Assembly: GCF_019059575.1 (NCBI RefSeq) | Contig: NW_024882885.1 | Span: 109,501 to 173,500, forward strand | Direction: 5' to 3' | DNA length: 64,000 bases | Source of the DNA: Amphibalanus amphitrite | Lineage: Eukaryota > Arthropoda > Thecostraca > Balanomorpha > Balanidae | Shown: in pieces, positions 12,368 to 62,118 of the stretch | Layout of the letters: each line of letters begins with the position of its first letter | Numbering within the stretch: the stretch's first letter is position 1 | Program-made: the position numbers and the translations under genes | The notes under the pieces: generated by a model | The model's database searches: none | What the model saw: the letters and a program-made list of their open reading frames with translations, nothing else | What the model was told of the DNA's origin: nothing

Positions 12368-12375
12368 GTTGCTAC

Positions 12376-12634: not shown

Positions 12635-12642
12635 GTTGCTAC

Positions 12643-18776: not shown

Positions 18777-21700
18777 TCACCAGCGCTCGGAACAGACTGA
18801 AGGCGCCGGCTCACCAGCCGGCTGCCGATCGCGGTTGAGAATTAGAGCTGCCAGATTACCAATGGAAGCAAGCACAGTTCCCGAATATTCTGTTACGAGA
18901 AGTAATCGAGACGCTTGAATTATGTATCCAGTGCAGATTTTAGGAAGACTGATGGGCTGAACAGCCGTTTTTAAAGAATTTGGCATACCATGTGTCCGTG
19001 TTGTAATTGATAACATTGATAATCTGGCAGCTCTAATACGTCAGCTGATAGGACCTAATTATCGTGGTCGGCCGCAACTGGCCCATTCTGCCGGCGAATT
19101 CAGTTTGTTCTGAGCACTGGTGAGGGGCACTGCATGTATCTTCTACAGCGAGGTGATCATTGAAGCGTTTTGTGTCGTCTGTACTGCAAGTCTGTTATAA
19201 GTTTGAATAAGTATGTATTGTAAACCGATATTCAACGTTCACTTGTTTCGTTGCTGGTTTTGTCTTTGATTTCTTTATGTCGGTTTTATATAACGTAACT
19301 TATCATTATTATGCTTCACGACAAGGGATGTTAAAGGAAAGACTGAAGATTCTAGTGCAATGTTTGTTACAATTTTTTCTAAAATCTTGCACATGGCAGA
19401 TTTATTATCGCTTAATCTCGTGACAAAAAATCGGATACAAAATAAAAAGACAAAGGCAGCAAGGACACAAGTGAAGTATTGAATACTAGTTAACTGAACA
19501 TACTTATTCAAATTAATAACAGACTTGCCGTACAGACGACACAAAACGCTTCAATGATCACCTCGCTGTAGAAGATACACGCAGTGCCCCTCACCAGTGC
19601 TCAGAACAAACTGAAGTCGCCGGCAGAATGGGCCAGTTGCGGCCGACCACGATAATTAGGTCCTATCAGCTGACGTATTAGAGCTGCCAGATTATCAATG
19701 TTATCAATTACAACACGGACACATGATATGCCAAGTTCTTTAAAAACGGCTGTTCAGCCCATTAGTCTTCTTAAAATCTGCACTGGATACATAATTCTAG
19801 CGTCTCGATTACTTCTCGTAACAGAACATTCGGGAACTGTGCTTGCTTCCATTGGAAATCTGGCAGCTCTAATTCTCAACCGCGATCGGCAGCCGGCCGG
19901 TGAGCCGGCGCCTTCAGTCTGTTCCGAGCGCTGATGAGGGGCGCTGCGCGTATCTTCTACAGCGAGGTGATCATTGAAGCGCTTTGTGTCGTCTATACGG
20001 CAAGTCTGTTATAAGTTTGAATATGTATGCATTGTAAACTGATATTCAATACGTTCTGTTGTCTCGTTGCTGGCTTTGTCTTTGGTTTATTTATGTCGGT
20101 TTTAAATAACGTAACTTATCATTATTATATTTCACAAGGGATGTTAAAGAAAAGACTGAAGATTCTAGACAGAATAAAAAGAAAAAGGCAGCAACGACAC
20201 AAGTGAAAGTATTGAAAACCAGTTCACTGAACATACTTATTCAAAATTATAACAGCATTGCCGTACAGACGACACACAGCGCTACTACGATCACATCGCT
20301 GTAAAGATGCACGCACCGCCCTTCACCAGTGCTTAGAACAAACTGAAGTCGCCGGCCAGTTGCAACCGACCACGATAATTAGGTCCTATCAGCTGACGTA
20401 TTAGAGCTGCCAGATTATCAATGTTATCAATTACAACACGGACACATGGTATGCCAAATTCTTTAAAAACGGCTGTTCAGCCCATTAGTCTTCCTAAAAT
20501 CTGCACTGGATACATAATTCTAGCGTCTCGATTACTTCTCGTAACAGAACATTCGGGAACTGTGCTTGCTTCCATTGGAAATCTGGCAGCTCTAATTCTC
20601 AACCACGATCGGCAGCCGGCCGGTGAGCCGGCGCCTTCAGTCTGTTCCGAGCGCTGGTGAGGGGCGCTGCGTGTATCTTCTACAGCGAGGTGATCATTGA
20701 AGCGCTTTGTGTCGTCTGTACGGCAAGACTGTTATAATTTTGAATTAGTATGTATTGTAAACTGATATTGAATACGTTCACTTGTGTCGTTGCTGCCTTT
20801 GTCTTTTTATTCTGTATAGAATCTTCAGTCTTTTCTTTAACATCCCTTGTCGTGAAATAAAATAATGATAAGTTACGTTATATAAAACCGACATAAATAA
20901 ACCAAAGACAAAGCCAGCAACGAGACAACAGAAGGTATTGAATAACAGTTTACAATACATAATTATTCAAACTTATAACAGACTTGCCGTATAGACGACA
21001 CAAAGCGCTTCAATGATCACCTCGCTGTAGAAGATACACGCAGCGCCACTCACCAGCGCTCGGAACAGACTGAAGGCGCCGGCTCACCAGCCGGCTGCCG
21101 ATCGCGGTTGAGAATTAGAGCTGCCAGATTACCAATGGAAGCAAGCACAGTTCCCGAATATTCTGTTACGAGAAGTAATCGAGATTCTTGAATTATGTAT
21201 CCAGTGCAGATTTTAGGAAGACTGATGGGCTGAACAGCCGTTTTTAAAGAATTTGGCATACCATGTGTCCGTGTTGTAATTGATAACATTGATAATATGG
21301 CAGCTCTAATACGTCAGCTGATAGGACCTAATTATCGTGGTCGGCCGCAACTGGCCCATTCTGCCGGCGACTTCAGTTTGTTCTGAGCACTGGTGAGGGG
21401 CACAGCGTGTATCTTCTACAGCGAGGTGATCATTGAAGCGTTTTATGTCGTCTGTACGGCAAGTCTGTTATAAGTTTGAATAAGTATTTTCAGTAAACTA
21501 GTATTCAATACTTCACTTGTGTCCTTGCTGCCTTTGTCTTTTTATTTTGTATCTGATTTTTTGTCACGACATTTAGCGATAATAAATCTGCCATGTGCAA
21601 GATTTTAAAAACAATTGTAACAATCATTGCACTAGAATCTTCAGTCTTTCCTTTAACATCCCTTTTCGTGAAATATAATAATGATAAGTTACGTTATATA

Positions 21701-24700
21701 AAACTGACATAAATAAACCAAAGACAAAGTCAGCAACGAGACAAGTGAACGTATTCAATATCAGTTTACAATACATACTAATTCAAAATTATAACAGACT
21801 TGCCGTACAGACGACACAAATCGCTGCAATGATCACCTCGCTGTAGAAGAGACACGCAGCGCCCCTCACCAGAACAGACTGAAGGCGTCGGCTGACCGGC
21901 CGGCTGCCGATCACGGTTGAGAATTAGAGCTGCCAGATTTCCAATGGAAGCAAGCACAGTTCCCGAATGTTCTGTTACGAGAAGTAATCGAGACGCTAAA
22001 ATTATATATCCAGTGCAGATTTTAAGAAGACTGATGGGCTGAACAGCCGTTTTTAAAGAATTTGGCATACCATGTGTCAATATTGTAATTGACAACATTG
22101 ATAATCTGGCAGCTCTAATACGTATTGTAAACTGATATTCAATACGTTCTGTTGTCTCGTTGCTGGCTTTGTCTTTGGTTTATTTATGTCGGTTTTATAT
22201 AACGTAACTAATCATTATTATATTTCACGACAAGGATGTTAAAGAAAAGAATGAAGATTCTAGACAGAATAAAAAGACAAAGGCAGCAACGACACAAGTG
22301 AAAGTATTGAATACCAGTTCACTGAACATACTTATTCAAAATTATAACAGCCTTGCCGTACAGACACAGCGCTACAACGATCTTATCGCTGTAGAAGATG
22401 CACGCATCGCCCTTCACCAGTGCTTAGAACAAACTGAAGTCGCCGGCAGAATGGGCCAGTTGCGGCCGACCACGATAATTAGGTCCTATCAGCTGACGTA
22501 TTAGAGCTGCCAGATAATCAATGTTATCAATTACAACACGGACACATGGTATGCCAAATTCTTTAAAAACGGCTGTTCAGCCCATCAGTCTTCCTAAAAT
22601 CTGCATTGGATACATAATTCTAGCGTCTCGATTACTTCTCGTAACAGAACATTCGGGAACTGTGCTTGCTTCCATTGGAAATCTGGCAGCTCTATTTCTC
22701 AACCGCGATCGGAGGCCGGCCGGTGAGCCGGCGCCTTCAGTCTGTTCCGAGCGCTGGTGAGGGGCGCTGCGTGTATCTTCTACAGCGAGGTGATCATTGA
22801 AGCGCTTTGTGTCGTCTGTACGGCTAGGCTGTTATAAGTTTGAATAAGTATGTTCAATGAACTGGTATTCAATACTTTCACTTGTGTCGTTGCTGCCTTT
22901 GTCTTTTTATTCTGTATAGAATCTTCAGTCTTTTCTTTAACATCCCTTGTCGTGAAATATAATTATGATAAGTTACGTTATATTAAACCGACATAAATAA
23001 ACCAAAAACAAAGCCAGCAACGAGACAACAGAACGTATTGAATATCAGTTTTCAATACATACTTATTCAAACTTATAACAGACTCTACGCATAGACGACA
23101 CAAGGCGCTTCAATGATCACCTCGCTGTAGAAGATACACGCAGCGCCCCTCACCAGCGCTCGGAACAGACTGAAGGCGCCGGCTCACCGGCCAGCTGCCG
23201 ATCGCGGTTGAGAATTAGAGCTGCCAGATTTCCCATGAAAGCAAGCACAGTTCCCGAATGTTCTGTTACGAGAAGTAATCGAGACGCTAGAATTATGTAT
23301 CCAGTGCAGATTTTAAGAAGACTAATGGACTGAACAGCCGTTTTTAAAGAACTTGGCATACCATGTGTCCGTGTTGTAATTGATAACATTGATAATCTGG
23401 CAGCTCTAATACGTCAGCTGATAGGACCTAATTATCGTGGTCGGCCGCAACTGGCCGGCGACTTCAGTTTGTTCTAAGCACTGGTGAAGGGCGGTGCGTG
23501 CATCTTTACAGCGATGTGATCGTTGTAGCGCTGTGTGTCGTCTTTTCGGCAAGGCTGTTATAATTCTGAATAAGTATGTTCAGTGAACTAGTATTCAATA
23601 CTTTCACTTGTGTCGTTGCTGCCTTTGTCTTTTTATTCTGTTTAGAAGCTTCAGTCTTTTCTTTAACATCCCTTGACGTGAAATAGAATAATGATAAGTT
23701 ACGTTATATAAAACCGATATAAATAAACCAAAAACAAAGCCAGGAACGAGACAACAGAACGTATTGAATATCAGTTTTCAATACATACTTATTCAAACTT
23801 ATAACAGACTTGCTGTATAGACGACGCAAAGCGCTTCAATGATCACCTCGCTGTAGAAGATACACGCAGCGCCCCTCACCACCGCTCGGAACAGACTGAA
23901 GGCGCCGGCTCACCGGCCGGCTGCCGATCGCGGTTGAGAATTAGAGCTGCCAGATTTCAATGGAAGCAAGCACAGTTCCCGAATGTTCTGTTACGAGAAG
24001 TAATCGAGACGCTAGAATTATGTATCCAGTGCAGATTTTAAGAAGACTAATGGGCTGAACAGCCGTTTTTAAAGAACTTGGCATACCATGTGTCCGTGTT
24101 GTAATTGATAACATTGATAATCTGGCAGCTCTAATACGTCAGCTGATAGGACCTAATTATCGTGGTCGGCCGCAACTGGCCCATTCTGCCGGCGAATTCA
24201 GTTTGTTCTGAGCACTGGTGAGGGGCACTGCATGTATCTTCTACAGCGAGGTGATCATTGAAGCGTTTTGTGTCGTCTGTACGGCAAGTCTGTTATAAGT
24301 TTGAATAAGTATGTATTATAAACCGATATTCAATACGTTCACTTGTTTCGTTGCTGGTTTTGTCTTTGGTTTCTTTATGTCGGTTTTATATAACGTAACT
24401 TATCATTATTATGCTTCACGACAAGGGATGTTAAAGGAAAGACTGAAGATTCTAGTGCAATGTTTGTTACAGTTTTTTTAAAATCTTGCACATGGCAGAT
24501 TTATTATCGCTTAATCTCGTGACAAAAAATCGGATACAAAATAAAAAGACAAAGGCAGCAAGGACACAAGTGAAGTATTGAATACTAGTTAACTGAACAT
24601 ACTTATTCAAACTTATAACAGACTTGCCGTACAGACGACACAAAACGCTTCAATGATCACCTCGCTGTAGAAGATACACGCAGTGCCCCTCACCAGTGCT

Positions 24701-26753
24701 CAGAGCAAACTGAAGTCGCCGGCAGAATGGGCCAGTTGCGGCCGACCACGATAATTAGGTCCTATCAGCTGACGTATTAGAGCTGCCAGATTATCAATGT
24801 TATCAATTACAACACGGACACATGATATGCCAAGTTCTTTAAAAACGGCTGTTCAGCCCATTAGTCTTCTTAAAATCTGCACTGGATACATAATTCTAGC
24901 GTCTCGATTACTTCTCGTAACAGAACATTCGGGAACTGTGCCTACTTCCATTGGAAATCTGGCAGCTCTAATTCTCAAATGCGATCGGTAGCCGGCCGGT
25001 GAGCCGGCGCCTTCAGTCTGTTCCGAGCGCTGGTGACGGGCGCTGCGTGTATCTTCTACAGCGAGGTGATCATTGAAGCGCTTTGTGTCGTCTATACGGC
25101 AAGTCTGTTATAAGTTTGAATAAGTATGCATTGTAAACTGATATTCAATAAATACGTTCTGTTGTCTCGTTGCTGGCTTTGTCTTTGGTTTATTTATGTC
25201 GGTTTTAAATAACGTAACTTATCATTATTATATTTCACAAGGGATGTTAAAGAAAAGACTGAAGATTCTAGACAGAATAAAAAGACAAAGGCAGCAACGA
25301 CACAAGTGAAAGTATTGAATACCAGTTCACTGAACATACTTATTCAAAATTATAACAGCGTTGCCGTACAGACGACACACAGCGCTACTACGATCACATC
25401 GCTGTAAAGATGCACGCACCGCCCTTCACCAGTGCTTAGAACAAACTGAAGTCGCCGGCCAGTTGCAACCGACCACGATAATTAGGTCCTATCAGCTGAC
25501 GTATTAGAGCTGCCAGATTATCAATGTTATCAATTACAACACGGACACATGGTATGCCAAGTTCTTGAAAAACGGCTGTTCAGCCCATTAGTCTTCTTAA
25601 AATCTGCACTGGATACATAATTCTAGCGTTTCGATTACTTCTCGAAACAGAACATTCGGGAACTGTGCTTGCTTCCATTGGAAATCTGGCAGCTCTAATT
25701 CTCAACCGCGATCGGCAGCCGGCCGGTGAGCCGGCGCCTTCAGTCTGTTCCGAGCGCTGGTGAGGGGCGCTGCGTGTATCTTCTACAGCGAGGTGATCAT
25801 TGAAGCGCTTTGTGTCGTCTGTACGGCTAGGCTGTTATAAGTTTGAATAAGTATGTTCAATGAACTGGTATTCAATACTTTCACTTGTGTCGTTGCTGCC
25901 TTTATCTTTTTATTCTGTATAGAATCTTCAGTCTTTTCTTTAACATCCCTTGTCGTGAAATATAATTATGATAAGTTACGTTATATTAAACCGACATAAA
26001 TAAACCAAAAACAAAGGCAGCAACGAGACAACAGAACGTATTGAATATCAGTTTTCAATAAATACTTATTCAAACTTATAACAGACTCTCCGCATAGACG
26101 ACACAAGGCGCTTCAATGATCACCTCGCTGTAGAAGATACACGCAGCGCCCCTCACCAGCGCTCGGAACAGACTGAAGGCGCCGGCTCACCGGCCAGCTG
26201 CCGATCGCGGTTGAGAATTAGAGCTGCCAGATTTCCAATGAAAGCAAGCACAGTTCCCGAATGTTCTGTTACGAGAAGTAATCGAGACGCTAGAATTATG
26301 TATCCAGTGCAGATTTTAAGAAGACTAATGGGCTGAACAGCCGTTTTTAAAGAACTTGGCATACCATGTGTCCATGTTGTAATTGATAACATTGATAATC
26401 TGGCAGCTCTAATACGTCAGCTGATAGGACCTAATTATCGTGGTCGGCCGCAACTGGCCGGCGACTTCAGTTTGTTCTAAGCACTGGTGAAGGGCGGTGC
26501 GTGCATCTTTACAGCGATGTGATCGTTGTAGCGCTGTGTGTCGTCTGTACGGCTTGTCGTGAAATAAAATAATAAGTTACGTTATATAAAAACGACATAA
26601 ATAAACCAAAGACAAAGCCAGCAACGAGACAACAGAAGGTATTGAATATCAGTTTACAATACATAATTATTCAAACTTATAACAGACTTGCCGTATAGAC
26701 GACACAAAGCGCTTCAATGATCACCTCGCTGTAGAAGATACACGCAGCGCCAC
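18777..26753. repeat. Higher-order repeat, copy A (7,977 bp, 11 units)
   Basis: Unit order is - + + - - + - - + + -. Every core has its counterpart in copies B and C at a constant offset (9,855 bp to B for most units). One core (about 23,876) lacks a single base relative to B (ATTTCAATGG against ATTTTCAATGG). Its last spacer has the 3-bp deletion AATAATAAG shared with B, C and E, whereas 18,589, 51,897 and 52,501 keep AATAATGATAAG. Confidence 0.85.
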
Positions 26754-28631
26754 TCACCAGCGCTCGGAACAGACTGAAGGCGCCGGCTCACCAGCCGGCT
26801 GCCGATCGCGGTTGAGAATTAGAGCTGCCAGATTACCAATGGAAGCAAGCACAGTTCCCGAATATTCTGTTACGAGAAGTAATCGAGACGCTTGAATTAT
26901 GTATCCAGTGCAGATTTTAGGAAGACTGATGGGCTGAACAGCCGTTTTTAAAGAATTTGGCATACCATGTGTCCGTGTTGTAATTGATAACATTGATAAT
27001 CTGGCAGCTCTAATACGTCAGCTGATAGGACCTAATTATCGTGGTCGGCCGCAACTGGCCCATTCTGCCGGCGAATTCAGTTTGTTCTGAGCACTGGTGA
27101 GGGGCACTGCATGTATCTTCTACAGCGAGGTGATCATTGAAGCGTTTTGTGTCGTCTGTACTGCAAGTCTGTTATAAGTTTGAATAAGTATGTATTGTAA
27201 ACCGATATTCAACGTTCACTTGTTTCGTTGCTGGTTTTGTCTTTGATTTCTTTATGTCGGTTTTATATAACGTAACTTATCATTATTATGCTTCACGACA
27301 AGGGATGTTAAAGGAAAGACTGAAGATTCTAGTGCAATGTTTGTTACAATTTTTTCTAAAATCTTGCACATGGCAGATTTATTATCGCTTAATCTCGTGA
27401 CAAAAAATCGGATACAAAATAAAAAGACAAAGGCAGCAAGGACACAAGTGAAGTATTGAATACTAGTTAACTGAACATACTTATTCAAACTAATAACAGA
27501 CTTGCCGTACAGACGACACAAAACGCTTCAATGATCACCTCGCTGTAGAAGATACACGCAGTGCCTCTCACCAGTGCTCAGAACAAACTGAAGTCGCCGG
27601 CAGAATGGGCCAGTTGCGGCCGACCACGATAATTAGGTCCTATCAGCTGACGTATTAGAGCTGCCAGATTATCAATGTTATCAATTACAACACGGACACA
27701 TGATATGCCAAGTTCTTTAAAAACGGCTGTTCAGCCCATTAGTCTTCTTAAAATCTGCACTGGATACATAATTCTAGCGTCTCGATTACTTCTCGTAACA
27801 GAACATTCGGGAACTGTGCTTGCTTCCATTGGAAATCTGGCAGCTCTAATTCTCAACCGCGATCGGCAGCCGGCCGGTGAGCCGGCGCCTTCAGTCTGTT
27901 CCGAGCGCTGGTGAGGGGCGCTGCGCGTATCTTCTACAGCGAGGTGATCATTGAAGCGCTTTGTGTCGTCTATACGGCAAGTCTGTTATAAGTTTGAATA
28001 TGTATGCATTGTAAACTGATATTAAATACGTTCTGTTGTCTCGTTGCTGGCTTTGTCTTTGGTTTATTTATGTCGGTTTTAAATAACGTAACTTATCATT
28101 ATTATATTTCACAAGGGATGTTAAAGAAAAGACTGAAGATTCTAGACAGAATAAAAAGAAAAAGGCAGCAACGACACAAGTGAAAGTATTGAAAACCAGT
28201 TCACTGAACATACTTATTCAAAATTATAACAGCATTGCCGTACAGACGACACACAGCGCTACTACGATCACATCGCTGTAAAGATGCACGCACCGCCCTT
28301 CACCAGTGCTTAGAACAAACTGAAGGCGCCGGCCAGTTGCGGCCAACCACTGAATACGTTCACTTGTGTCGTTGCTGCCTTTGTCTTTTTATTCTGTCTA
28401 TAATCTTCAGTCTTTTCTTTAACATCCCTTGTCGTGAAATAAAATAATGATAAGTTACGTTATATAAAACCGACATAAATAAACCAAAGACAAAGCCAGC
28501 AACGAGACAACAGAAGGTATTGAATATCAGTTTACAATACATAATTATTCAAACTTATAACAGACTTGCCGTATAGACGACACAAAGCGCTTCAATGATC
28601 ACCTCGCTGTAGAAGATACACGCAGCGCCAC
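26754..28631. repeat. 1,878-bp rearranged block, first copy
   Basis: It holds a minus core, a plus core and then a junction at about 28,351 where GCGGCCAACCAC jumps to TGAATACGTTCACTTG, deleting the next plus core. The identical junction recurs at 46,185. It precedes higher-order copy B, so that A to B is 9,855 bp while B to C is 7,978 bp. Confidence 0.85.
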
Positions 28632-31600
28632 TCACCAGCGCTCGGAACAGACTGAAGGCGCCGGCTCACCAGCCGGCTGCCGATCGCGGTTGAGAATTAG
28701 AGCTGCCAGATTACCAATGGAAGCAAGCACAGTTCCCGAATATTCTGTTACGAGAAGTAATCGAGACGCTTGAATTATGTATCCAGTGCAGATTTTAGGA
28801 AGACTGATGGGCTGAACAGCCGTTTTTAAAGAATTTGGCATACCATGTGTCCGTGTTGTAATTGATAACATTGATAATCTGGCAGCTCTAATACGTCAGC
28901 TGATAGGACCTAATTATCGTGGTCGGCCGCAACTGGCCCATTCTGCCGGCGAATTCAGTTTGTTCTGAGCACTGGTGAGGGGCACTGCATGTATCTTCTA
29001 CAGCGAGGTGATCATTGAAGCGTTTTGTGTCGTCTGTACTGCAAGTCTGTTATAAGTTTGAATAAGTATGTATTGTAAACCGATATTCAACGTTCACTTG
29101 TTTCGTTGCTGGTTTTGTCTTTGATTTCTTTATGTCGGTTTTATATAACGTAACTTATCATTATTATGCTTCACGACAAGGGATGTTAAAGGAAAGACTG
29201 AAGATTCTAGTGCAATGTTTGTTACAATTTTTTCTAAAATCTTGCACATGGCAGATTTATTATCGCTTAATCTCGTGACAAAAAATCGGATACAAAATAA
29301 AAAGACAAAGGCAGCAAGGACACAAGTGAAGTATTGAATACTAGTTAACTGAACATACTTATTCAAATTAATAACAGACTTGCCGTACAGACGACACAAA
29401 ACGCTTCAATGATCACCTCGCTGTAGAAGATACACGCAGTGCCCCTCACCAGTGCTCAGAACAAACTGAAGTCGCCGGCAGAATGGGCCAGTTGCGGCCG
29501 ACCACGATAATTAGGTCCTATCAGCTGACGTATTAGAGCTGCCAGATTATCAATGTTATCAATTACAACACGGACACATGATATGCCAAGTTCTTTAAAA
29601 ACGGCTGTTCAGCCCATTAGTCTTCTTAAAATCTGCACTGGATACATAATTCTAGCGTCTCGATTACTTCTCGTAACAGAACATTCGGGAACTGTGCTTG
29701 CTTCCATTGGAAATCTGGCAGCTCTAATTCTCAACCGCGATCGGCAGCCGGCCGGTGAGCCGGCGCCTTCAGTCTGTTCCGAGCGCTGATGAGGGGCGCT
29801 GCGCGTATCTTCTACAGCGAGGTGATCATTGAAGCGCTTTGTGTCGTCTATACGGCAAGTCTGTTATAAGTTTGAATATGTATGCATTGTAAACTGATAT
29901 TCAATACGTTCTGTTGTCTCGTTGCTGGCTTTGTCTTTGGTTTATTTATGTCGGTTTTAAATAACGTAACTTATCATTATTATATTTCACAAGGGATGTT
30001 AAAGAAAAGACTGAAGATTCTAGACAGAATAAAAAGAAAAAGGCAGCAACGACACAAGTGAAAGTATTGAAAACCAGTTCACTGAACATACTTATTCAAA
30101 ATTATAACAGCATTGCCGTACAGACGACACACAGCGCTACTACGATCACATCGCTGTAAAGATGCACGCACCGCCCTTCACCAGTGCTTAGAACAAACTG
30201 AAGTCGCCGGCCAGTTGCAACCGACCACGATAATTAGGTCCTATCAGCTGACGTATTAGAGCTGCCAGATTATCAATGTTATCAATTACAACACGGACAC
30301 ATGGTATGCCAAATTCTTTAAAAACGGCTGTTCAGCCCATTAGTCTTCCTAAAATCTGCACTGGATACATAATTCTAGCGTCTCGATTACTTCTCGTAAC
30401 AGAACATTCGGGAACTGTGCTTGCTTCCATTGGAAATCTGGCAGCTCTAATTCTCAACCACGATCGGCAGCCGGCCGGTGAGCCGGCGCCTTCAGTCTGT
30501 TCCGAGCGCTGGTGAGGGGCGCTGCGTGTATCTTCTACAGCGAGGTGATCATTGAAGCGCTTTGTGTCGTCTGTACGGCAAGACTGTTATAATTTTGAAT
30601 TAGTATGTATTGTAAACTGATATTGAATACGTTCACTTGTGTCGTTGCTGCCTTTGTCTTTTTATTCTGTATAGAATCTTCAGTCTTTTCTTTAACATCC
30701 CTTGTCGTGAAATAAAATAATGATAAGTTACGTTATATAAAACCGACATAAATAAACCAAAGACAAAGCCAGCAACGAGACAACAGAAGGTATTGAATAA
30801 CAGTTTACAATACATAATTATTCAAACTTATAACAGACTTGCCGTATAGACGACACAAAGCGCTTCAATGATCACCTCGCTGTAGAAGATACACGCAGCG
30901 CCACTCACCAGCGCTCGGAACAGACTGAAGGCGCCGGCTCACCAGCCGGCTGCCGATCGCGGTTGAGAATTAGAGCTGCCAGATTACCAATGGAAGCAAG
31001 CACAGTTCCCGAATATTCTGTTACGAGAAGTAATCGAGATTCTTGAATTATGTATCCAGTGCAGATTTTAGGAAGACTGATGGGCTGAACAGCCGTTTTT
31101 AAAGAATTTGGCATACCATGTGTCCGTGTTGTAATTGATAACATTGATAATATGGCAGCTCTAATACGTCAGCTGATAGGACCTAATTATCGTGGTCGGC
31201 CGCAACTGGCCCATTCTGCCGGCGACTTCAGTTTGTTCTGAGCACTGGTGAGGGGCACAGCGTGTATCTTCTACAGCGAGGTGATCATTGAAGCGTTTTA
31301 TGTCGTCTGTACGGCAAGTCTGTTATAAGTTTGAATAAGTATTTTCAGTAAACTAGTATTCAATACTTCACTTGTGTCCTTGCTGCCTTTGTCTTTTTAT
31401 TTTGTATCTGATTTTTTGTCACGACATTTAGCGATAATAAATCTGCCATGTGCAAGATTTTAAAAACAATTGTAACAATCATTGCACTAGAATCTTCAGT
31501 CTTTCCTTTAACATCCCTTTTCGTGAAATATAATAATGATAAGTTACGTTATATAAAACTGACATAAATAAACCAAAGACAAAGTCAGCAACGAGACAAG

Positions 31601-48460: not shown

Positions 48461-48553
48461 AACACCATGAGCACATCATGAACTTTGAACTCGACACATC
48501 ATGAAACACACCATGAACATGTACGCATCATGAACACATCATGAACTCGAAAC
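48461..48553. repeat. Short degenerate tandem repeat (ACATCATGAA)
   Basis: About six to seven spaced copies of ACATCATGAA/ACACCATGAA lie in the left part of the TA element, upstream of the minisatellite. Confidence 0.7.
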
Positions 48554-48759
48554 CTTTTCATTGACTCAGTATCTACTGTCGGCAGAGGTCACAAGTGAAA
48601 CTTGTCTGTTTTGTTTCAGCGTCAGTGCATGGCACGCATGCCCAGCCAGTGCACACTTGACATTGTATCCACTCTTCACACGATCGTGAGAACTTCATGC
48701 AGCAGTATATGCATGTCGTCTCACTTCCTGATGACTGGTCTTCATTGGGCTTTAGGTAC

Positions 48760-49590
48760 CTGTTTTATTTTCACGTGTCCATGTTTGGCTGTTTTCTTTG
48801 TTTTTTCCTTGTTACCGTCGGACTCAAACAATGCCCTCTTTACCAGCACAGCATCTCTATTAACTGCCCTTCGCTTACCTTTGCTCTGCACGCGAGGGGT
48901 TGGCATCACGTCATGCAGACTTCTATCTAGTTCTTCGTCGTCCCGCATGGATACGGAGTCAGCACGAGATGTTCCATCGGCCGAGCTCCCGGGCCCGGCG
49001 TCACCAGCCGAGCGCCCGGGCCTGGCGTCACTTGCCGAGCGCCCGGGCCCGGCGTCACCTGCCGAGCTCCCGGGCCCGGCGTCACCAGCCGAGCGCCCGG
49101 GCCTGGCGTCACTTGCCGAGCGCCCGAGCCCGGCGTCACCTGCCGAGCTCCCGGGCCCGGCGTCACCAGCCGAGCGCCCGGGCCTGGCGTCACTTGCCGA
49201 GCGCCCGGGTCCGGCGTCACCAGTCGAGCGCCCGGGCCCGGCGTCACCTGCCGAGCTCCCGGGCCCGGCGTCACCAGCCGAGCGCCCGGGTCCGGCGTCA
49301 CCAGCCGAGCGCCCGGGCCCGGCGTCACCTGCCGAGCTCCCGGGCCCCGCGTCACCAGTCGAGCGCCCGGGCCCGGCGTCACATGCCGAGCGCCCGGGCC
49401 CGGCGTCACCTGCCGAGCTCCCGGGCCCGGCGTCACCAGCCGAGCGCCCGGGCCCGGCGTCACCTGCCGAGCTCCCGGGCCCGGCGTCACCAGCCGAGCG
49501 CCCGGGTCCGGCGTCACCAGCCGAGCGCGCGGGCCCGGCGTCCAGCTCCACCGCCGTTTTGCCAGCTCCACCGCCGGGAGTGGAGCTCAA
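48760..49590 (-). CDS. Putative exon of a repeat-containing protein inside the TA element
   Basis: The minus-strand frame is open through the whole minisatellite and then through about 220 bp of non-repetitive sequence. That part encodes a charged, lysine-rich tail (for example SMRDDEELDRSLHD and SKGKRRAVNRDAVLVKRAL) and runs into CAG|GTACCT, a usable splice donor at 48,760/48,759. No ATG or clear acceptor is seen at the upstream side. The opposite strand is also open (48602-49657, 351 codons from a non-ATG start) but its non-repeat part is Ser/Cys/Leu-rich, as expected of an antisense frame. The protein is not recognised. It could be captured host sequence or chance openness of a GC-rich repeat. 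Confidence 0.25.
48980..49542. repeat. 27-bp minisatellite, 20 full copies plus one partial
   Basis: Each unit reads GCCGAG(C/G)(T/G)CCCGGG..., then GGCGTCAC plus two variable bases. The first nine units follow an 81-bp super-period (units ending CA, TT, CT). Because 27 is divisible by three and the unit has no stops, several frames stay open: plus-strand repeats of the type PGPASPAER and minus-strand repeats of the type AGDAGPGRS. Confidence 0.95.
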
Positions 49591-52083
49591 TGCCGCATTC
49601 TACACTGTGCCAATGCCTAACATGTCAATTCATCGTGATATAAGCTGCTCCTTGTAAGAAAGAAGGCTAGATAATCATCAGATGTACTGTGCGCATTTGC
49701 GGCACTGAAAGTGTGCGTCATTGCAGAACCAGTTGCCCTAAACACGCACACCTGACATTCAGCCCCCTCCCGTCAGCACTGACGCATTCTGGGTAAAGCA
49801 TGCATGCCTAAACTGAGCCCCGTTTCATTGCCATCCGGTCAGTGCCCATCGATCTTTCCGGCCTATTCAGGTTTACGCGAGAAGTGCATGCGTCTTAAAA
49901 CATGCATTATTGCTTCAGGCACTTTTTTGCTGAAGAAACATTGCACCTCAATCACAATATCCGCCATAACTACTCACCTTTTGAGCCGACAACACCCCAC
50001 CGCCGTCCACCGCCGTCCACACGCAGCACAAATGTCGCTGGAAGTGATTGACAGCTGATTTTTTCGTTCCTGGCTTCTGCTGAAGGAACTACATTAAAAA
50101 AAGTTCTTGGTGTGCGCTTTTAGGAAGTGTGCGTCATAGGAGCCACTTACCCTATGCCAAATTCTTTAAAAACGGCTGTTCAGCCCATCAGTCTTCCTAA
50201 AATCTGCACTGGATACATAATTCTAGCGTCTCGATTACTTCTCGTAACAGAACATTCGGGAACTGTGCTTGCTTCCATTGGAAATCTGGCAGCTCTAATT
50301 CTCAACCGCGATCGGCAGTCGGCCGGTGAGCCGGCGCTCTCAGTCTGTTCCGAGCGCTGGTGAGGGGCGCTGAGTGTATCTTCTACAGCGAGGTGATCAT
50401 TGAAGCGCTTTGTGTCGTCTATACGGCAAGTCTGTTATAAGTTTGAATAAGTATGCATTGTAAACTGATATTCAATAAATACGTTCTGTTGTCTCGTTGC
50501 TGGCTTTGTCTTTGGTTTATTTATGTCGGTTTTAAATAACGTAACTTATCATTATTATATTTCACAAGGGATGTTAAAGAAAAGACTGAAGATTCTAGAC
50601 AGAATAAAAAGACAAAGGCAGCAACGACACAAGTGAAAGTATTGAATACCAGTTCACTGAACATACTTATTCAAAATTATAACAGCGTTGCCGTACAGAC
50701 GACACACAGCGCTACTACGATCACATCGCTGTAAAGATGCACGCACCGCCCTTCACCAGTGCTTAGAACAAACTGAAGTCGCCGGCCAGTTGCAACCGAC
50801 CACGATAATTAGGTCCTATCAGCTGACGCATTAGAGCTGCCAGATTATCAATGTTATCAATTACAACACGGACACATGGTATGCCAAGTTCTTGAAAAAC
50901 GGCTGTTCAGCCCATTAGTCTTCTTAAAATCTGCACTGGATACATAATTCTAGCGTCTCGATTACTTCTCGTAACAGAACATTCGGGAACTGTGCTTGCT
51001 TCCATTGAAAATCTGGCAGCTCTAATTCTCAACCGCGATCGGCAGCCGGCCGGTGAGCCGGCGCCTTCAGTCTGTTCCGAGCGCTGGTGAGGGGCGCTGC
51101 GTGTATCTTCTACAGCGAGGTGATCATTGAAGCGCTTTATGTCGTCTGTACGGCTAGGCTGTTATAAGTTTGAATAAGTATGTTCAATGAACTGGTATTC
51201 AATACTTTCACTTGTGTCGTTGCTGCCTTTGTCTTTTTATTCTGTATAGAATCTTCAGTCTTTTCTTTAACATCCCTTGTCCTGAAATATAATTATGATA
51301 AGTTACGTTATATTAAACCGACATAAATAAACCAAAAACAAAGGCAGCAACGAGACAACAGAACGTATTGAATATCAGTTTTCAATACATACTTATTCAA
51401 ACTTATAACAGACTCTCCGCATAGACGACACAAGGCGCTTCAATGATCACCTCGCTGTAGAAGATACACGCAGCGCCCCTCACCAGCGCTCGGAACAGAC
51501 TGAAGGCGCCGGCTCACCGGCCAGCTGCCGATCGCGGTTGAGAATTAGAGCTGCCAGATTTCCAATGAAAGCAAGCACAGTTCCCGAATGTTCTGTTACG
51601 AGAAGTAATCGAGACGCTAGAATTATGTATCCAGTGCAGATTTTAACAAGACTAATGGGCTGAACAGCCGTTTTTAAAGAACTTGGCATACCATGTGTCC
51701 ATGTTGTAATTGATAACATTGATAATCTGGCAGCTCTAATACGTCAGCTGATAGGACCTAATTATCGTGGTCGGCCGCAACTGGCCGGCGACTTCAGTTT
51801 GTTCTAAGCACTGGTGAAGGGCGGTGCGTGCATCTTTACAGCGATGTGATCGTTTTAGCGCTGTGTGTCGTCTGTACGGCTTGTCGTGAAATAAAATAAT
51901 GATAAGTTACGTTATATAAAACCGACATAAATAAACCAAAGACAAAGCCAGCAACGAGACAACAGAAGGTATTGAATATCAGTTTACAATACATAATTAT
52001 TCAAACTTATAACAGACTTGCCGTATAGACGACACAAAGCGCTTCAATGATCACCTCGCTGTAGAAGATACACGCAGCGCCAC

Positions 52084-52687
52084 TCACCAGCGCTCGGAAC
52101 AGACTGAAGGCGCCGGCTCACCAGCCGGCTGCCGATCGCGGTTGAGAATTAGAGCTGCCAGATTACCAATGGAAGCAAGCACAGTTCCCGAATATTCTGT
52201 TACGAGAAGTAATCTAGACGCTTGAATTATGTATCCAGTGCAGATTTTAGGAAGACTGATGGGCTGAACAGCCGTTTTTAAAGAATTTGGCATACCATGT
52301 GTCCGTGTTGTAATTGATAACATTGATAATCTGGCAGCTCTAATACGTCAGCTGATAGGACCTAATTATCGTGGTCGGCCGCAACTGGCCGGCGACTTCA
52401 GTTTGTTCTAAGCACTGGTGAAGGGCGGTGCGTGCATCTTTACAGCGATGTGATCGTTTTAGCGCTGTGTGTCGTCTGTACGGCTTGTCGTGAAATAAAA
52501 TAATGATAAGTTACGTTATATAAAACCGACATAAATAAACCAAAGACAAAGCCAGCAACGAGACAACAGAAGGTATTGAATATCAGTTTACAATACATAA
52601 TTATTCAAACTTATAACAGACTTGCCGTATAGACGACACAAAGCGCTTCAATGATCACCTCGCTGTAGAAGATACACGCAGCGCCAC
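52084..52687. repeat. 604-bp tandem duplicate unit
   Basis: Units at 52084 and 52688 are consecutive, minus-oriented and share private variants: AATCTAGACG (52,214 and 52,818) and CGTTTTAGCG (51,852 and 52,456). All other units have AATCGAGACG and CGTTGTAGCG. This is a recent local head-to-tail duplication. Confidence 0.85.
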
Positions 52688-55600
52688 TCACCAGCGCTCG
52701 GAACAGACTGAAGGCGCCGGCTCACCAGCCGGCTGCCGATCGCGGTTGAGAATTAGAGCTGCCAGATTACCAATGGAAGCAAGCACAGTTCCCGAATATT
52801 CTGTTACGAGAAGTAATCTAGACGCTTGAATTATGTATCCAGTGCAGATTTTAGGAAGACTGATGGGCTGAACAGCCGTTTTTAAAGAATTTGGCATACC
52901 ATGTGTCCGTGTTGTAATTGATAACATTGATAATCTGGCAGCTCTAATACGTCAGCTGATAGGACCTAATTATCGTGGTCGGCCGCAACTGGCCCATTCT
53001 GCCGGCGAATTCAGTTTGTTCTGAGCACTGGTGAGGGGCACTGCATGTATCTTCTACAGCGAGGTGATCATTGAAGCGTTTTGTGTCGTCTGTACTGCAA
53101 GTCTGTTATAAGTTTGAATAAGTATGTATTGTAAACCGATATTCAACGTTCACTTGTTTCGTTGCTGGTTTTGTCTTTGATTTCTTTATGTCGGTTTTAT
53201 ATAACGTAACTTATCATTATTATGCTTCACGACAAGGGATGTTAAAGGAAAGACTGAAGATTCTAGTGCAATGTTTGTTACAATTTTTTCTAAAATCTTG
53301 CACATGGCAGATTTATTATCGCTTAATCTCGTGACAAAAAATCGGATACAAAATAAAAAGACAAAGGCAGCAAGGACACAAGTGAAGTATTGAATACTAG
53401 TTAACTGAACATACTTATTCAAACTAATAACAGACTTGCCGTACAGACGACACAAAACGCTTCAATGATCACCTCGCTGTAGAAGATACACGCAGTGCCC
53501 CTCACCAGTGCTCAGAACAAACTGAAGTCGCCGGCAGAATGGGCCAGTTGCGGCCGACCACGATAATTAGGTCCTATCAGCTGACGTATTAGAGCTGCCA
53601 GATTATCAATGTTATCAATTACAACACGGACACATGATATGCCAAGTTCTTTAAAAACGGCTGTTCAGCCCATTAGTCTTCTTAAAATCTGCACTGGATA
53701 CATAATTCTAGCGTCTCGATTACTTCTCGTAACAGAACATTCGGGAACTGTGCTTGCTTCCATTGGAAATCTGGCAGCTCTAATTCTCAACCGCGATCGG
53801 CAGCCGGCCGGTGAGCCGGCGCCTTCAGTCTGTTCCGAGCGCTGGTGAGGGGCGCTGCGCGTATCTTCTACAGCGAGGTGATCATTGAAGCGCTTTGTGT
53901 CGTCTATACGGCAAGTCTGTTATAAGTTTGAATATGTATGCATTGTAAACTGATATTCAATACGTTCTGTTGTCTCGTTGCTGGCTTTGTCTTTGGTTTA
54001 TTTATGTCGGTTTTAAATAACGTAACTTATCATTATTATATTTCACAAGGGATGTTAAAGAAAAGACTGAAGATTCTAGACAGAATAAAAAGAAAAAGGC
54101 AGCAACGACACAAGTGAAAGTATTGAAAACCAGTTCACTGAACATACTTATTCAAAATTATAACAGCATTGCCGTACAGACGACACACAGCGCTACTACG
54201 ATCACATCGCTGTAAAGATGCACGCACCGCCCTTCACCAGTGCTTAGAACAAACTGAAGTCGCCGGCCAGTTGCAACCGACCACGATAATTAGGTCCTAT
54301 CAGCTGACGTATTAGAGCTGCCAGATTATCAATGTTATCAATTACAACACGGACACATGGTATGCCAATTCTTTAAAAACGGCTGTTCAGCCCATTAGTC
54401 TTCCTAAAATCTGCACTGGATACATAATTCTAGCGTCTCGATTACTTCTCGTAACAGAACATTCGGGAACTGTGCTTGCTTCCATTGGAAATCTGGCAGC
54501 TCTAATTCTCAACCACGATCGGCAGCCGGCCGGTGAGCCGGCGCCTTCAGTCTGTTCCGAGCGCTGGTGAGGGGCGCTGCGTGTATCTTCTACAGCGAGG
54601 TGATCATTGAAGCGCTTTGTGTCGTCTGTACGGCAAGACTGTTATAATTTTGAATTAGTATGTATTGTAAACTGATATTGAATACGTTCACTTGTGTCGT
54701 TGCTGCCTTTGTCTTTTTATTCTGTCTATAATCTTCAGTCTTTTCTTTAACATCCCTTGTCGTGAAATAAAATAATGATAAGTTACGTTATATAAAACCG
54801 ACATAAATAAACCAAAGACAAAGCCAGCAACGAGACAACAGAAGGTATTGAATAACAGTTTACAATACATAATTATTCAAACTTATAACAGACTTGCAGT
54901 ATAGACGACACAAAGCGCTTCAATGATCACCTCGCTGTAGAAGATACACGCAGCGCCACTCACCAGCGCTCGGAACAGACTGAAGGCGCCGGCTCACCAG
55001 CCGGCTGCCGATCGCGATTGAGAATTAGAGCTGCCAGATTACCAATGGAAGCAAGCACAGTTCCCGAATATTCTGTTACGAGAAGTAATCGAGACGCTTG
55101 AATTATGTATCCAGTGCAGATTTTAGGAAGACTGATGGGCTGAACAGCCGTTTTTAAAGAATTTGGCATACCATGTGTCCGTGTTGTAATTGATAACATT
55201 GATAATATGGCAGCTCTAATACGTCAGCTGATAGGACCTAATTATCGTGGTCGGCCGCAACTGGCCCATTCTGCCGGCGACTTCAGTTTGTTCTGAGCAC
55301 TGGTGAGGGGCACAGCGTGTATCTTCTACAGCGAGGTGATCATTGAAGCGTTTTGTGTCGTCTGTACGGCAAGTCTGTTATAAGTTTGAATAAGTATTTT
55401 CAGTAAACTAGTATTCAATACTTCACTTGTGTCCTTGCTGCCTTTGTCTTTTTATTTTGTATCTGATTTTTTGTCACGACATTTAGCGATAATAAATCTG
55501 CCATGTGCAAGATTTTAAAAACAATTGTAACAATCATTGCACTAGAATCTTCAGTCTTTCCTTTAACATCCCTTTTCGTGAAATATAATAATGATAAGTT

Positions 55601-58600
55601 ACGTTATATAAAACTGACATAAATAAACCAAAGACAAAGTCAGCAACGAGACAAGTGAACGTATTCAATATCAGTTTACAATACATACTAATTCAAAATT
55701 ATAACAGACTTGCCGTACAGACGACACAAATCGCTGCAATGATCACCTCGCTGTAGAAGAGACACGCAGCGCCCCTCACCAGAACAGACTGAAGGCGTCG
55801 GCTGACCGGCCGGCTGCCGATCACGGTTGAGAATTAGAGCTGCCAGATTTCCAATGGAAGCAAGCACAGTTCCCGAATGTTCTGTTACGAGAAGTAATCG
55901 AGACGCTAAAATTATATATCCAGTGCAGATTTTAAGAAGACTGATGGGCTGAACAGCCGTTTTTAAAGAATTTGGCATACCATGTGTCAATATTGTAATT
56001 GACAACATTGATTATCTGGCAGCTCTAATACGTAATGTAAACTGATATTCAATACGTTCTGTTGTCTCGTTGCTGGCTTTGTCTTTGGTTTATTTATGTC
56101 GGTTTTATATAACGTAACTAATCATTATTATATTTCACGACAAGGATGTTAAAGAAAAGAATGAAGATTCTAGACAGAATAAAAAGACAAAGGCAGCAAC
56201 GACACAAGTGAAAGTATTGAATACCAGTTCACTGAACATACTTATTCAAAATTATAACAGCCTTGCCGTACAGACACAGCGCTACAACGATCTTATCGCT
56301 GTAGAAGATGCACGCATCGCCCTTCACCAGTGCTTAGAACAAACTGAAGTCGCCGGCAGAATGGGCCAGTTGCGGCCGACCACGATAATTAGGTCCTATC
56401 AGCTGACGTATTAGAGCTGCCAGATAATCAATGTTATCAATTACAACACGGACACATGGTATGCCAAATTCTTTAAAAACGGCTGTTCAGCCCATCAGTC
56501 TTCCTAAAATCTGCATTGGATACATAATTCTAGCGTCTCGATTACTTCTCGTAACAGAACATTCGGGAACTGTGCTTGCTTCCATTGGAAATCTGGCAGC
56601 TCTATTTCTCAACCGCGATCGGAGGCCGGCCGGTGAGCCGGCGCCTTCAGTCTGTTCCGAGCGCTGGTGAGGGGCGCTGCGTGTATCTTCTACAGCGAGG
56701 TGATCATTGAAGCGCTTTGTGTCGTCTGTACGGCTAGGCTGTTATAAGTTTGAATAAGTATGTTCAATGAACTGGTATTCAATACTTTCACTTGTGTCGT
56801 TGCTGCCTTTGTCTTTTTATTCTGTATAGAATCTTCAGTCTTTTCTTTAACATCCCTTGTCGTGAAATATAATTATGATAAGTTACGTTATATTAAACCG
56901 ACATAAATAAACCAAAAACAAAGCCAGCAACGAGACAACAGAACGTATTGAATATCAGTTTTCAATACATACTTATTCAAACTTATAACAGACTCTACGC
57001 ATAGACGACACAAGGCGCTTCAATGATCACCTCGCTGTAGAAGATACACGCAGCGCCCCTCACCAGCGCTCGGAACAGACTGAAGGCGCCGGCTCACCGG
57101 CCAGCTGCCGATCGCGGTTGAGAATTAGAGCTGCCAGATTTCCCATGAAAGCAAGCACAGTTCCCGAATGTTCTGTTACGAGAAGTAATCGAGACGCTAG
57201 AATTATGTATCCAGTGCAGATTTTAAGAAGACTAATGGACTGAACAGCCGTTTTTAAAGAACTTGGCATACCATGTGTCCGTGTTGTAATTGATAACATT
57301 GATAATCTGGCAGCTCTAATACGTCAGCTGATAGGACCTAATTATCGTGGTCGGCCGCAACTGGCCGGCGACTTCAGTTTGTTCTAAGCACTGGTGAAGG
57401 GCGGTGCGTGCATCTTTACAGCGATGTGATCGTTGTAGCGCTGTGTGTCGTCTTTTCGGCAAGGCTGTTATAATTCTGAATAAGTATGTTCAGTGAACTA
57501 GTATTCAATACTTTCACTTGTGTCGTTGCTGCCTTTGTCTTTTTATTCTGTTTAGAAGCTTCAGTCTTTTCTTTAACATCCCTTGACGTGAAATAGAATA
57601 ATGATAAGTTACGTTATATAAAACCGATATAAATAAACCAAAAACAAAGCCAGGAACGAGACAACAGAACGTATTGAATATCAGTTTTCAATACATACTT
57701 ATTCAAACTTATAACAGACTTGCTGTATAGACGACGCAAAGCGCTTCAATGATCACCTCGCTGTAGAAGATACACGCAGCGCCCCTCACCACCGCTCGGA
57801 ACAGACTGAAGGCGCCGGCTCACCGGCCGGCTGCCGATCGCGGTTGAGAATTAGAGCTGCCAGATTTTCAATGGAAGCAAGCACAGTTCCCGAATGTTCT
57901 GTTACGAGAAGTAATCGAGACGCTAGAATTATGTATCCAGTGCAGATTTTAAGAAGACTAATGGGCTGAACAGCCGTTTTTAAAGAACTTGGCATACCAT
58001 GTGTCCGTGTTGTAATTGATAACATTGATAATCTGGCAGCTCTAATACGTCAGCTGATAGGACCTAATTATCGTGGTCGGCCGCAACTGGCCCATTCTGC
58101 CGGCGAATTCAGTTTGTTCTGAGCACTGGTGAGGGGCACTGCATGTATCTTCTACAGCGAGGTGATCATTGAAGCGTTTTGTGTCGTCTGTACGGCAAGT
58201 CTGTTATAAGTTTGAATAAGTATGTATTATAAACCGATATTCAATACGTTCACTTGTTTCGTTGCTGGTTTTGTCTTTGGTTTCTTTATGTCGGTTTTAT
58301 ATAACGTAACTTATCATTATTATGCTTCACGACAAGGGATGTTAAAGGAAAGACTGAAGATTCTAGTGCAATGTTTGTTACAGTTTTTTTAAAATCTTGC
58401 ACATGGCAGATTTATTATCGCTTAATCTCGTGACAAAAAATCGGATACAAAATAAAAAGACAAAGGCAGCAAGGACACAAGTGAAGTATTGAATACTAGT
58501 TAACTGAACATACTTATTCAAACTTATAACAGACTTGCCGTACAGACGACACAAAACGCTTCAATGATCACCTCGCTGTAGAAGATACACGCAGTGCCCC

Positions 58601-61600
58601 TCACCAGTGCTCAGAGCAAACTGAAGTCGCCGGCAGAATGGGCCAGTTGCGGCCGACCACGATAATTAGGTCCTATCAGCTGACGTATTAGAGCTGCCAG
58701 ATTATCAATGTTATCAATTACAACACGGACACATGATATGCCAAGTTCTTTAAAAACGGCTGTTCAGCCCATTAGTCTTCTTAAAATCTGCACTGGATAC
58801 ATAATTCTAGCGTCTCGATTACTTCTCGTAACAGAACATTCGGGAACTGTGCTTGCTTCCATTGGAAATCTGGCAGCTCTAATTCTCAACCGCGATCGGC
58901 AGCCGGCCGGTGAGCCGGCGCCTTCAGTCTGTTCCGAGCGCTGGTGAGGGGCGCTGCGCGTATCTTCTACAGCGAGGTGATCATTGAAGCGCTTTGTGTC
59001 GTCTATACGGCAAGTCTGTTATAAGTTTGAATATGTATGCATTGTAAACTGATATTCAATACGTTCTGTTGTCTCGTTGCTGGCTTTGTCTTTGGTTTAT
59101 TTATGTCGGTTTTAAATAACGTAACTTATCATTATTATATTTCACAAGGGATGTTAAAGAAAAGACTGAAGATTCTAGACAGAATAAAAAGACAAAGGCA
59201 GCAACGACACAAGTGAAAGTATTGAATACCAGTTCACTGAACATACTTATTCAAAATTATAACAGCCTTGCTGTAAAGACACAGTGCTACAACGATCTTA
59301 TCGCTGTAGAAGATGCACGCACCGCCCTTCACCAGTGCTTAGAACAAACTGAAGTCGCCGGCAGAATGGGCCAGTTGCGGCCGACCACGATATTAAGGTC
59401 CTATCAGCTGACGTATTAGAGCTGCCAGATTATCAATGTTATCAATTACAACACGGACACATAGTATGCCAAGTTCTTTAAAAACGGCTGTTCAGCCCAT
59501 TAGTCTTCTTAAAATCTGCACTGGATACATAATTCTAGCGTCTCGATTACTTCTCGTAACAGAACATTCGGGAACTGTGCCTACTTCCATTGGAAATCTG
59601 GCAGCTCTAATTCTCAAATGCGATCGGTAGCCGGCCGGTGAGCCGGCGCCTTCAGTCTGTTCCGAGCGCTGGTGACGGGCGCTGCGTGTATCTTCTACAG
59701 CGAGGTGATCATTGAAGCGCTTTGTGTCGTCTATACGGCAAGTCTGTTATAAGTTTGAATAAGTATGCATTGTAAACTGATATTCAATAAATACGTTCTG
59801 TTGTCTCGTTGCTGGCTTTGTCTTTGGTTTATTTATGTCGGTTTTAAATAACGTAACTTATCATTATTATATTTCACAAGGGATGTTAAAGAAAAGACTG
59901 AAGATTCTAGACAGAATAAAAAGACAAAGGCAGCAACGACACAAGTGAAAGTATTGAATACCAGTTCACTGAACATACTTATTCAAAATTATAACAGCGT
60001 TGCCGTACAGACGACACACAGCGCTACTACGATCACATCGCTGTAAAGATGCACGCACCGCCCTTCACCAGTGCTTAGAACAAACTGAAGTCGCCGGCCA
60101 GTTGCAACCGACCACGATAATTAGGTCCTATCAGCTGACGTATTAGAGCTGCCAGATTATCAATGTTATCAATTACAACACGGACACATGGTATGCCAAG
60201 TTCTTGAAAAACGGCTGTTCAGCCCATTAGTCTTCTTAAAATCTGCACTGGATACATAATTCTAGCGTCTCGATTACTTCTCGTAACAGAACATTCGGGA
60301 ACTGTGCTTGCTTCCATTGAAAATCTGGCAGCTCTAATTCTCAACCGCGATCGGCAGCCGGCCGGTGAGCCGGAGCCTTCAGTCTGTTCCGAGCGGTGGT
60401 GAGGGGCGCTGCGCGTATCTTCTACAGCGAGGTGATCATTGAAGCGCCTTGTGTCGTCTATGCGGAGAGTCTGTTATAAGTTTGAATAAGTATGTATTGA
60501 AAACTGATATTCAATACGTTCTGTTGTCTCGTTGCTGGCTTTGTTTATGGTTCATTTATGTCGGTTTTTTATAACGTAACTTATCATTATTCTATTTCAC
60601 GACAAGGGATGTTAAAGAAAAGACTGAAGATTCTAGACAGAATAAAAAGACAAAGGCAGCAACGACACAAGTGAAAGTATTGAATACCAGTTCACTGAAC
60701 ATACTTATTCAAAATTATAGCAGCCTTGCCGTACAGACGACACACAGCGCTACAACGATCACATCGCTGTAAAGATGCACGCACCGCCCTTCACCAGTGC
60801 TTAGAACAAACTGAAGTCGCCGGCCAGTTGCAACCGACCACGATAATTAGGTCCTATCAGCTGACGTATTAGAGCTGCCAGATTATCAATGTTATCAATT
60901 ACAACACGGACACATGGTATGCCAAGTTCTTTAAAAACGGCTGTTCAGCCCATTAGTCTTCTTAAAATCTGCACTGGATACATAATTCTAGCGTTTCGAT
61001 TACTTCTCGAAACAGAACATTCGGGAACTGTGCTTGCTTCCATTGGAAATCTGGCAGCTCTAATTCTCAACCGCGATCGGCAGCCGGCCGGTGAGCCGGC
61101 GCCTTCAGTCTGTTCCGAGCGCTGGTGAGGGGCGCTGCGTGTATCTTCTACAGCGAGGTGATCATTGAAGCGCTTTGTGTCGTCTGTACGGCTAGGCTGT
61201 TATAAGTTTGAATAAGTATGTTCAATGAACTGGTATTCAATACTTTCACTTGTGTCGTTGCTGCCTTTATCTTTTTATTCTGTATAGAATCTTCAGTCTT
61301 TTCTTTAACATCCCTTGTCGTGAAATATAATTATGATAAGTTACGTTATATTAAACCGACATAAATAAACCAAAAACAAAGGCAGCAACGAGACAACAGA
61401 ACGTATTGAATATCAGTTTTCAATAAATACTTATTCAAACTTATAACAGACTCTCCGCATAGACGACACAAGGCGCTTCAATGATCACCTCGCTGTAGAA
61501 GATACACGCAGCGCCCCTCACCAGCGCTCGGAACAGACTGAAGGCGCCGGCTCACCGGCCAGCTGCCGATCGCGGTTGAGAATTAGAGCTGCCAGATTTC

Positions 61601-62118
61601 CAATGAAAGCAAGCACAGTTCCCGAATGTTCTGTTACGAGAAGTAATCGAGACGCTAGAATTATGTATCCAGTGCAGATTTTAAGAAGACTAATGGGCTG
61701 AACAGCCGTTTTTAAAGAACTTGGCATACCATGTGTCCATGTTGTAATTGATAACATTGATAATCTGGCAGCTCTAATACGTCAGCTGATAGGACCTAAT
61801 TATCGTGGTCGGCCGCAACTGGCCGGCGACTTCAGTTTGTTCTAAGCACTGGTGAAGGGCGGTGCGTGCATCTTTACAGCGATGTGATCGTTGTAGCGCT
61901 GTGTGTCGTCTGTACGGCTTGTCGTGAAATAAAATAATAAGTTACGTTATATAAAAACGACATAAATAAACCAAAGACAAAGCCAGCAACGAGACAACAG
62001 AAGGTATTGAATATCAGTTTACAATACATAATTATTCAAACTTATAACAGACTTGCCGTATAGACGACACAAAGCGCTTCAATGATCACCTCGCTGTAGA
62101 AGATACACGCAGCGCCAC
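52688..62118. repeat. Higher-order repeat, copy E, expanded by two units (9,431 bp)
   Basis: From 52688 to about 58,700 it matches copy C at a constant offset of 16,077 bp. Two extra plus units (about 728 bp at 58708-59435 and about 726 bp between 60159 and 60889) then shift the offset to 16,805 and 17,531. The second extra unit carries the rare TTTGTTTATGG spacer known otherwise only at the left edge. Confidence 0.8.

Follow-up and report, generated by a model that had tools for sequence, protein, structure and literature searches.

A barnacle satellite with units in mixed orientation, amplified as higher-order repeats and associated with inverted flanking arms

A stretch of 64,000 bp from the barnacle Amphibalanus amphitrite (the window; C1388:109501-173500, in an assembly of 807.6 Mb and 2,644 contigs) carries a satellite array in which units lie in both orientations and mixed-orientation blocks of units have been amplified as higher-order repeats. 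The structure is real and well defined, and is a new variation on satellites with large dyad symmetry. Mixed orientation belongs to the satellite family genome-wide and not to the block in the window alone. Such higher-order repeats are probably explained by a founder inversion, followed by shuffling and block amplification.

The unit of about 730 bp comprises a 457-bp imperfect palindrome (linker P) and a directional core of about 270 bp (K), a division based on the self-complementarity of P, the directional spacers between linkers and the folding energies. In head-to-tail stretches consecutive copies of P are about 270-280 bp apart and the spacer is directional. As single-stranded DNA, the 457 bp of P fold at -146.6 kcal/mol, compared with -51.6 ± 4.9 for 100 shuffles, and the 270 bp of K at -36.0 kcal/mol, compared with -27.0 ± 3.4 for 200 shuffles. 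The array starts at 13414, not at 18777 as the initial annotation had it, and runs on to the contig end, which lies 283 bp beyond the window and is still satellite; in total, satellite makes up 48 kb of the 64.3 kb examined. Core spacing within a block is 539-809 bp, a wider range than the unit size of 600-730 bp proposed earlier. Features are listed in Table 1.

Table 1. Features of the window (position 1 is its first base)
Feature	Position	Strand	Details
hAT-type DNA transposon	128..5240	-	790-aa open frame 128-2500
Left arm	5241..13259	+	recurs inverted beyond the array in other contigs (homology searches)
Satellite array, mixed-orientation units	13414..64000	.	self-alignment; 64 core markers within the window
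0.7-kb non-satellite insert in one unit	14589..15267	.	
Higher-order block A, 11 units	18573..26553	+	self-alignment, core markers
Extra two-unit block, 1,874 bp	26554..28427	+	100% identical to 44388-46261
Higher-order block B, 11 units	28428..36408	+	self-alignment, core markers
Higher-order block C, 11 units	36409..44387	+	self-alignment, core markers
Extra two-unit block, second copy	44388..46261	+	identity to 26554-28427
2.0-kb insert inside a unit core	48141..50152	.	perfect 17-bp inverted ends (GGGTAAGTGGCTCCTAT), TA on either side
Fourth block copy, partial	52484..60098	+	about 6 kb near-identical, then two extra units
Linker P, example	59642..60098	+	457 bp, 74.5% match to own reverse complement
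Core K, example	60099..60368	+	270 bp, directional

Self-alignment pairs 18573-28350 with 28428-38206 at an offset of 9,855 (A to B), 28428-38206 with 36409-46184 at an offset of 7,981 at the start and 7,978 past a 3-bp deletion (B to C), and sequence from 36409 with that from 52484 at an offset of 16,075 (C to the fourth copy). The initial annotation had given the first of these values exactly; for the step from C to the next copy, it had found the repeat but put the offset at 16,077. Its period of 7,978 holds from B to C and nowhere else, the larger period by self-alignment being about 17,846, or 11 + 13 units. The mixed-orientation order that it had described, - + + - - + - - + + -, is genuine, since core markers place exact copies at 18944, 28799 and 36777 and a partial one in the fourth copy, which from 52855 reads - + + - - + - - + + + + -.

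That the composite block is the amplified unit, as had also been claimed, is borne out by the few substitutions separating its copies (A and B, 9 in 9,778; B and C, 12 in 9,776; A and C, 3 in 9,775) and by the distances at which similar cores recur. The share of core pairs with at least 99.5% identity peaks at lags 11, 13 and 24 (30, 35 and 37%, respectively); at lag 19 it is 15%, and at every other lag up to 25 it stays at 0-9%. The array thus consists of related units in tandem, and its multi-unit blocks resemble one another far more closely than adjacent units do. The block copies are young, as they are 99.8-99.97% identical. Of the 127 differences between the fourth copy and B, 12 lie in the first 6 kb and the remaining 115 are crowded into the last 1.6 kb, where the sequence passes into a different unit; for this reason its reading as an old copy (1.7% diverged) was rejected. 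In each of A, B and C, a stretch of 4.2 kb is self-complementary at 90% identity, so that the overlapping long palindromes described at the outset are present. The initial annotation thus recognized the amplified block and its palindromes; the 457-bp palindrome in the unit, the family-wide mixing of orientation and the inverted arms had escaped it.

Both inserts in the array have features of their own. The 0.7-kb insert begins near ACGGAGCGAGCGAAGCGAGCG and has GCGAGC-rich inverted ends and an internal 128-bp tandem duplication. The 2.0-kb insert resembles a DNA transposon and contains a GC-rich, 27-bp minisatellite in which several frames are open; no transposase family was found in the two frames scanned. 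Inserts also occur in the arrays of C979 (1.8 kb, two copies, 99.8% identical) and C408 (1.1 kb, two copies, 99.3% identical) and, since each is present twice in near-identical form, these were co-amplified with blocks. A search of the window gave no Rfam match at the gathering score, and a 133-aa frame of the array (one of three identical copies scanned) gave no Pfam match.

Across the assembly, the core pattern (≤ 3 mismatches) was matched 333 times in forward and 338 times in reverse orientation, with no match on either strand for the reversed-pattern control. These 671 matches in 807.6 Mb correspond to roughly 0.5 Mb of satellite (0.06% of the assembly); because the window's contig ends inside the array, this is a minimum. 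In nine sampled contigs (173 cores identified by marker, neighbours < 1.1 kb apart), the 154 neighbouring pairs comprised 73 head-to-tail, 39 tail-to-tail and 42 head-to-head. Hence 81 of the 154 are inverted and the head-to-tail arrangement of an ordinary complex satellite does not apply. Within contigs, cores in opposite orientation are 94.6% identical and cores in the same orientation 95.2% (172 cores). Unit order varies from one sampled array to another, and the order repeated in the window is absent, in either direction, from the other eight sampled contigs (108 cores). Mixed-orientation higher-order repeats of 12 units (lag 12, 6/6 pairs ≥ 99%) and of 6/7 units (lags 6, 7 and 13: 35, 47 and 46%) were found in C979 and C1600, respectively. 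Among the matches listed, TTAGG runs are scattered inside long contigs and thus give no hint for or against a link to telomeres. The mitochondrial contig has its protein genes in the usual insect and crustacean order and contains a repeated piece of the ND4/ND5 region (7337-7855), either a duplication or an assembly fault.

Inverted junctions share their switch points. Of the 39 tail-to-tail junctions 37 were analysed, and in 29 of these, from seven contigs, P gives way to its reverse complement either in one 11-bp interval (213-224, 28 junctions) or 2 bp from it (211-222, one junction). Among the head-to-head junctions (32 of 42 analysed), the change falls at 195-244 or 196-245 in 20, from five contigs. 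For each junction the reading direction with the earlier switch was used, a choice that may favour agreement. The head-to-head interval, 49 bp wide, is by arithmetic the mirror place of the tail-to-tail interval. Switches deviate in 8/37 tail-to-tail and 12/32 head-to-head junctions, ten of the latter at 138-139 (only in C979 and C2232) and two in C108. Junctions of C979 and C2232 are not independent because these contigs share identical sequence, and those within duplicated blocks are likewise not independent observations.

An insert of about 80 bp also distinguishes the junction types. It is present in all 32 full-length head-to-head junctions (785-804 bp), in 14 of 73 head-to-tail junctions and in one of 39 tail-to-tail junctions. 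The other ten of the 42 head-to-head junctions are shortened (485-589 bp), and no insert-free head-to-head junction of the expected length (about 720 bp) occurs among the 42 in nine contigs. If an insert-free linker and one bearing the insert had exchanged reciprocally, the two inverted junctions together should be as long as the two head-to-tail forms together; the sums agree to within about 16 bp, an approximate balance (752 + 798 against 726 + 809 in the window's contig; 752 + 800 against 736 + 816 for the commonest values across contigs). In 63/63 head-to-tail junctions with one linker marker (of the 73, nine have no marker and one has two), the linker keeps a constant direction with respect to the core, indicating that linkers do not flip freely.

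The left arm of the window recurs widely. A query mostly of arm sequence (11648-13413) gave at least 22 long matches (≥ 1,141 of 1,766 bases; 91-100% identity) in at least 16 contigs including that of the window, and thus in at least 15 others at 91-98%, these numbers being lower bounds because they come from the best 40 of 2,529 candidates. In seven contigs (C1600, C1859, C1950, C2083, C332, C206 and C108) the arm flanks a gap of about 18-49 kb to the left and to the right, and in all seven the arms converge. The right-hand matches are shorter in C206 and C108, and C206 is not a simple palindrome, as its left arm is present twice in direct order. Satellite was detected in the gap at six of the seven loci (C1600, C108, C332 (3 kb), C1859, C2083 and C206 (400 bp each)), and a 400-bp sample from the centre of the C1950 gap gave no satellite match. 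Only the left arm is assembled in the window's contig, whose array would once also have had a right arm.

The arms of C1950 are 99.8% identical over 4.2 kb and extend outward through a BEL/Pao copy; outward arm sequence is common to C1718, C979 and C1600, diverging further out. The C332 locus spans 69.7 kb, the fetched parts of its arms (326755-342000 and 381524-396504) being 98-99.6% identical where aligned and the remainder up to the array being covered by search matches. Among the matches listed, a 1.1-kb repeat near the C332 arm end recurs outward on both sides in mirrored order with matching subtypes, and two left-hand copies have no right-hand partner. Mirror symmetry at C332 may therefore reach about 70 kb from the array, perhaps 96-152 kb. 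Each C332 arm also has a lone degenerate satellite unit (about 80%) outside the array (330206-330878 and 392352-393023), which is present in the C979 arm as well. Elsewhere, parts of 5720-8200 of the window recur at about 20 sites with 90-95% identity, which makes the arm a mosaic that includes older dispersed elements. Arm homology of other contigs begins sharply at 5241, and the arm seems to be interrupted there by the hAT-type element, whose end we take, from its sequence and known end motifs, to lie near 5237. The 790-aa frame of this element matches Pfam DUF4371 (2.5e-13) and Dimer_Tnp_hAT (1.4e-07).

From the junctions and arrays we infer an order of events and a mechanism of recombination. 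A single ancestral inversion between an insert-free linker and one with the insert of about 80 bp would have given two reciprocal products, one tail-to-tail and one head-to-head junction. P reads much the same on either strand; therefore, an inversion ending inside two P copies leaves the junctions intact. Recombination between oppositely oriented units would subsequently have inverted the intervening stretches, shuffling orientations and keeping junction types, and unequal exchange or block duplication would have amplified local strings of units (11 and 13 here). The resulting mixed-orientation higher-order repeats would be locus-specific, and the arrays would form the centres of inverted-arm loci across the genome. 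Later conversion or more inversions must be added, because 12 head-to-head and 8 tail-to-tail switches deviate.

Shared switch points would also be expected from recurrent inversion at one favoured site; all that opposes this is the constancy of the insert and of linker direction. Both also speak against continual free inversion, in which recombination, or a site-specific recombinase, would keep turning units over between flanking palindromic linkers: the near-equal orientations and the one dominant switch point fit this process, but it is improbable given a constant linker direction in 63/63 single-marker head-to-tail junctions and an insert found in 32/32 full-length head-to-head against 1/39 tail-to-tail junctions. 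Mis-joined long reads might have produced the repeat copies or the palindromes, as 3-12 sites per approximately 9.8 kb separate A, B and C, the extra two-unit block has two identical copies and the contig end falls inside the array. However, a common switch point of inverted junctions is shared across seven contigs, arrays elsewhere have blocks of their own and the C332 arms differ by 0.4-2% with indels, making an assembly artefact quite improbable; real doubt is limited to the copy number of the 8-kb block, which could reflect assembly duplication.

Two further explanations concern the arms. Foldback elements have long inverted repeats rich in tandem repeats, and the array could be the interior and the arms, which converge in 7/7 contigs with both sides seen, the termini of a giant mobile element of this type. 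This is very improbable, as there is no common outer end: in the young copies compared, arm homology runs outward for at least 5-8 kb through BEL/Pao. In addition, at C332, the one locus checked for this, no target-site duplication flanks the limits of the aligned arms (326755 and 396504), and mirrored copies of related sequence lie beyond them; neither the defined ends of foldback elements nor the fixed termini with target-site duplication of a mobile element were found there. The satellite may otherwise be the spacer of ampliconic palindromes on a sex or B chromosome, given the many arm copies 96-99% identical on short contigs. This is conceivable but doubtful, since older copies (91-94%) lie within long contigs, among them C332 (657 kb), C206 (836 kb) and C108 (1.08 Mb).

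Judged from sequence, the likely role of the satellite is structural (heterochromatin), or it has none; the initial annotation had proposed centromeric or heterochromatic DNA or a source of hairpin RNA as possible roles. Centromeres of fission yeast and Candida tropicalis have a central element between inverted arms, alike at several chromosomes. By analogy, there is a slight chance that the convergent-arm loci, with a mixed-orientation satellite as centre and arms homogenized between chromosomes, are candidate centromere cores, although unlike the yeast centromeres the barnacle loci have a satellite array as their centre. An animal centromere would then exist as a giant palindrome with fission-yeast-like architecture. 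Long inverted repeats are usually unstable, and tens of kilobases of palindromic DNA kept, not lost, at many loci are an unusual natural case. The junctions seem still to record the founding inversion, offering a handle on how palindromic satellites originate, spread and survive.

The open literature searched offered no precedent for higher-order repeats of mixed-orientation units enclosed by inverted non-satellite arms, and only work on Tribolium looked a close parallel there. The premise of the initial annotation that ordinary satellites are head-to-tail is fair, although inverted subarrays have been published for Tribolium (PMC13081366). In the available part of that paper, TmSat1 and TmSat2 of Tribolium madens are macro-dyad satellites whose arrays change orientation, with conserved inversion-site sequences and dyad symmetries of tens of kilobases; arrays mostly consist of two inverted subarrays, and a shared element of about 110 bp makes up 38% of the genome (PMC13081366). 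Its authors state there that macro-dyad satellite-array symmetries are documented only in Tribolium (PMC13081366), a paper that PMC13427858, in the part available, merely cites. The barnacle arrays likewise combine array-scale inverted symmetry with conserved inversion sites (29/37 and 20/32 junctions), raising the question of whether (peri)centromeres beyond beetles, too, are marked by symmetry as such, a role proposed for it in Tribolium. The TmSat2 monomer is 704 bp with a palindrome-like part of about 600 bp (PMC13081366), and the barnacle satellite resembles it in a monomer of about 700 bp with a big internal palindrome and in its orientation changes, a likeness of description rather than a claim of common descent. 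Tribolium brevicornis has a 1061-bp satellite with inverted segments of about 470 bp (as cited in PMC13081366), similar, as far as this one citing passage goes, in the long dyad symmetry within the monomer. Unlike the two subarrays described in the available text for T. madens, the barnacle array switches orientation about every second unit, amplifies mixed-orientation blocks as higher-order repeats and belongs to a family of arrays flanked by non-satellite inverted arms.
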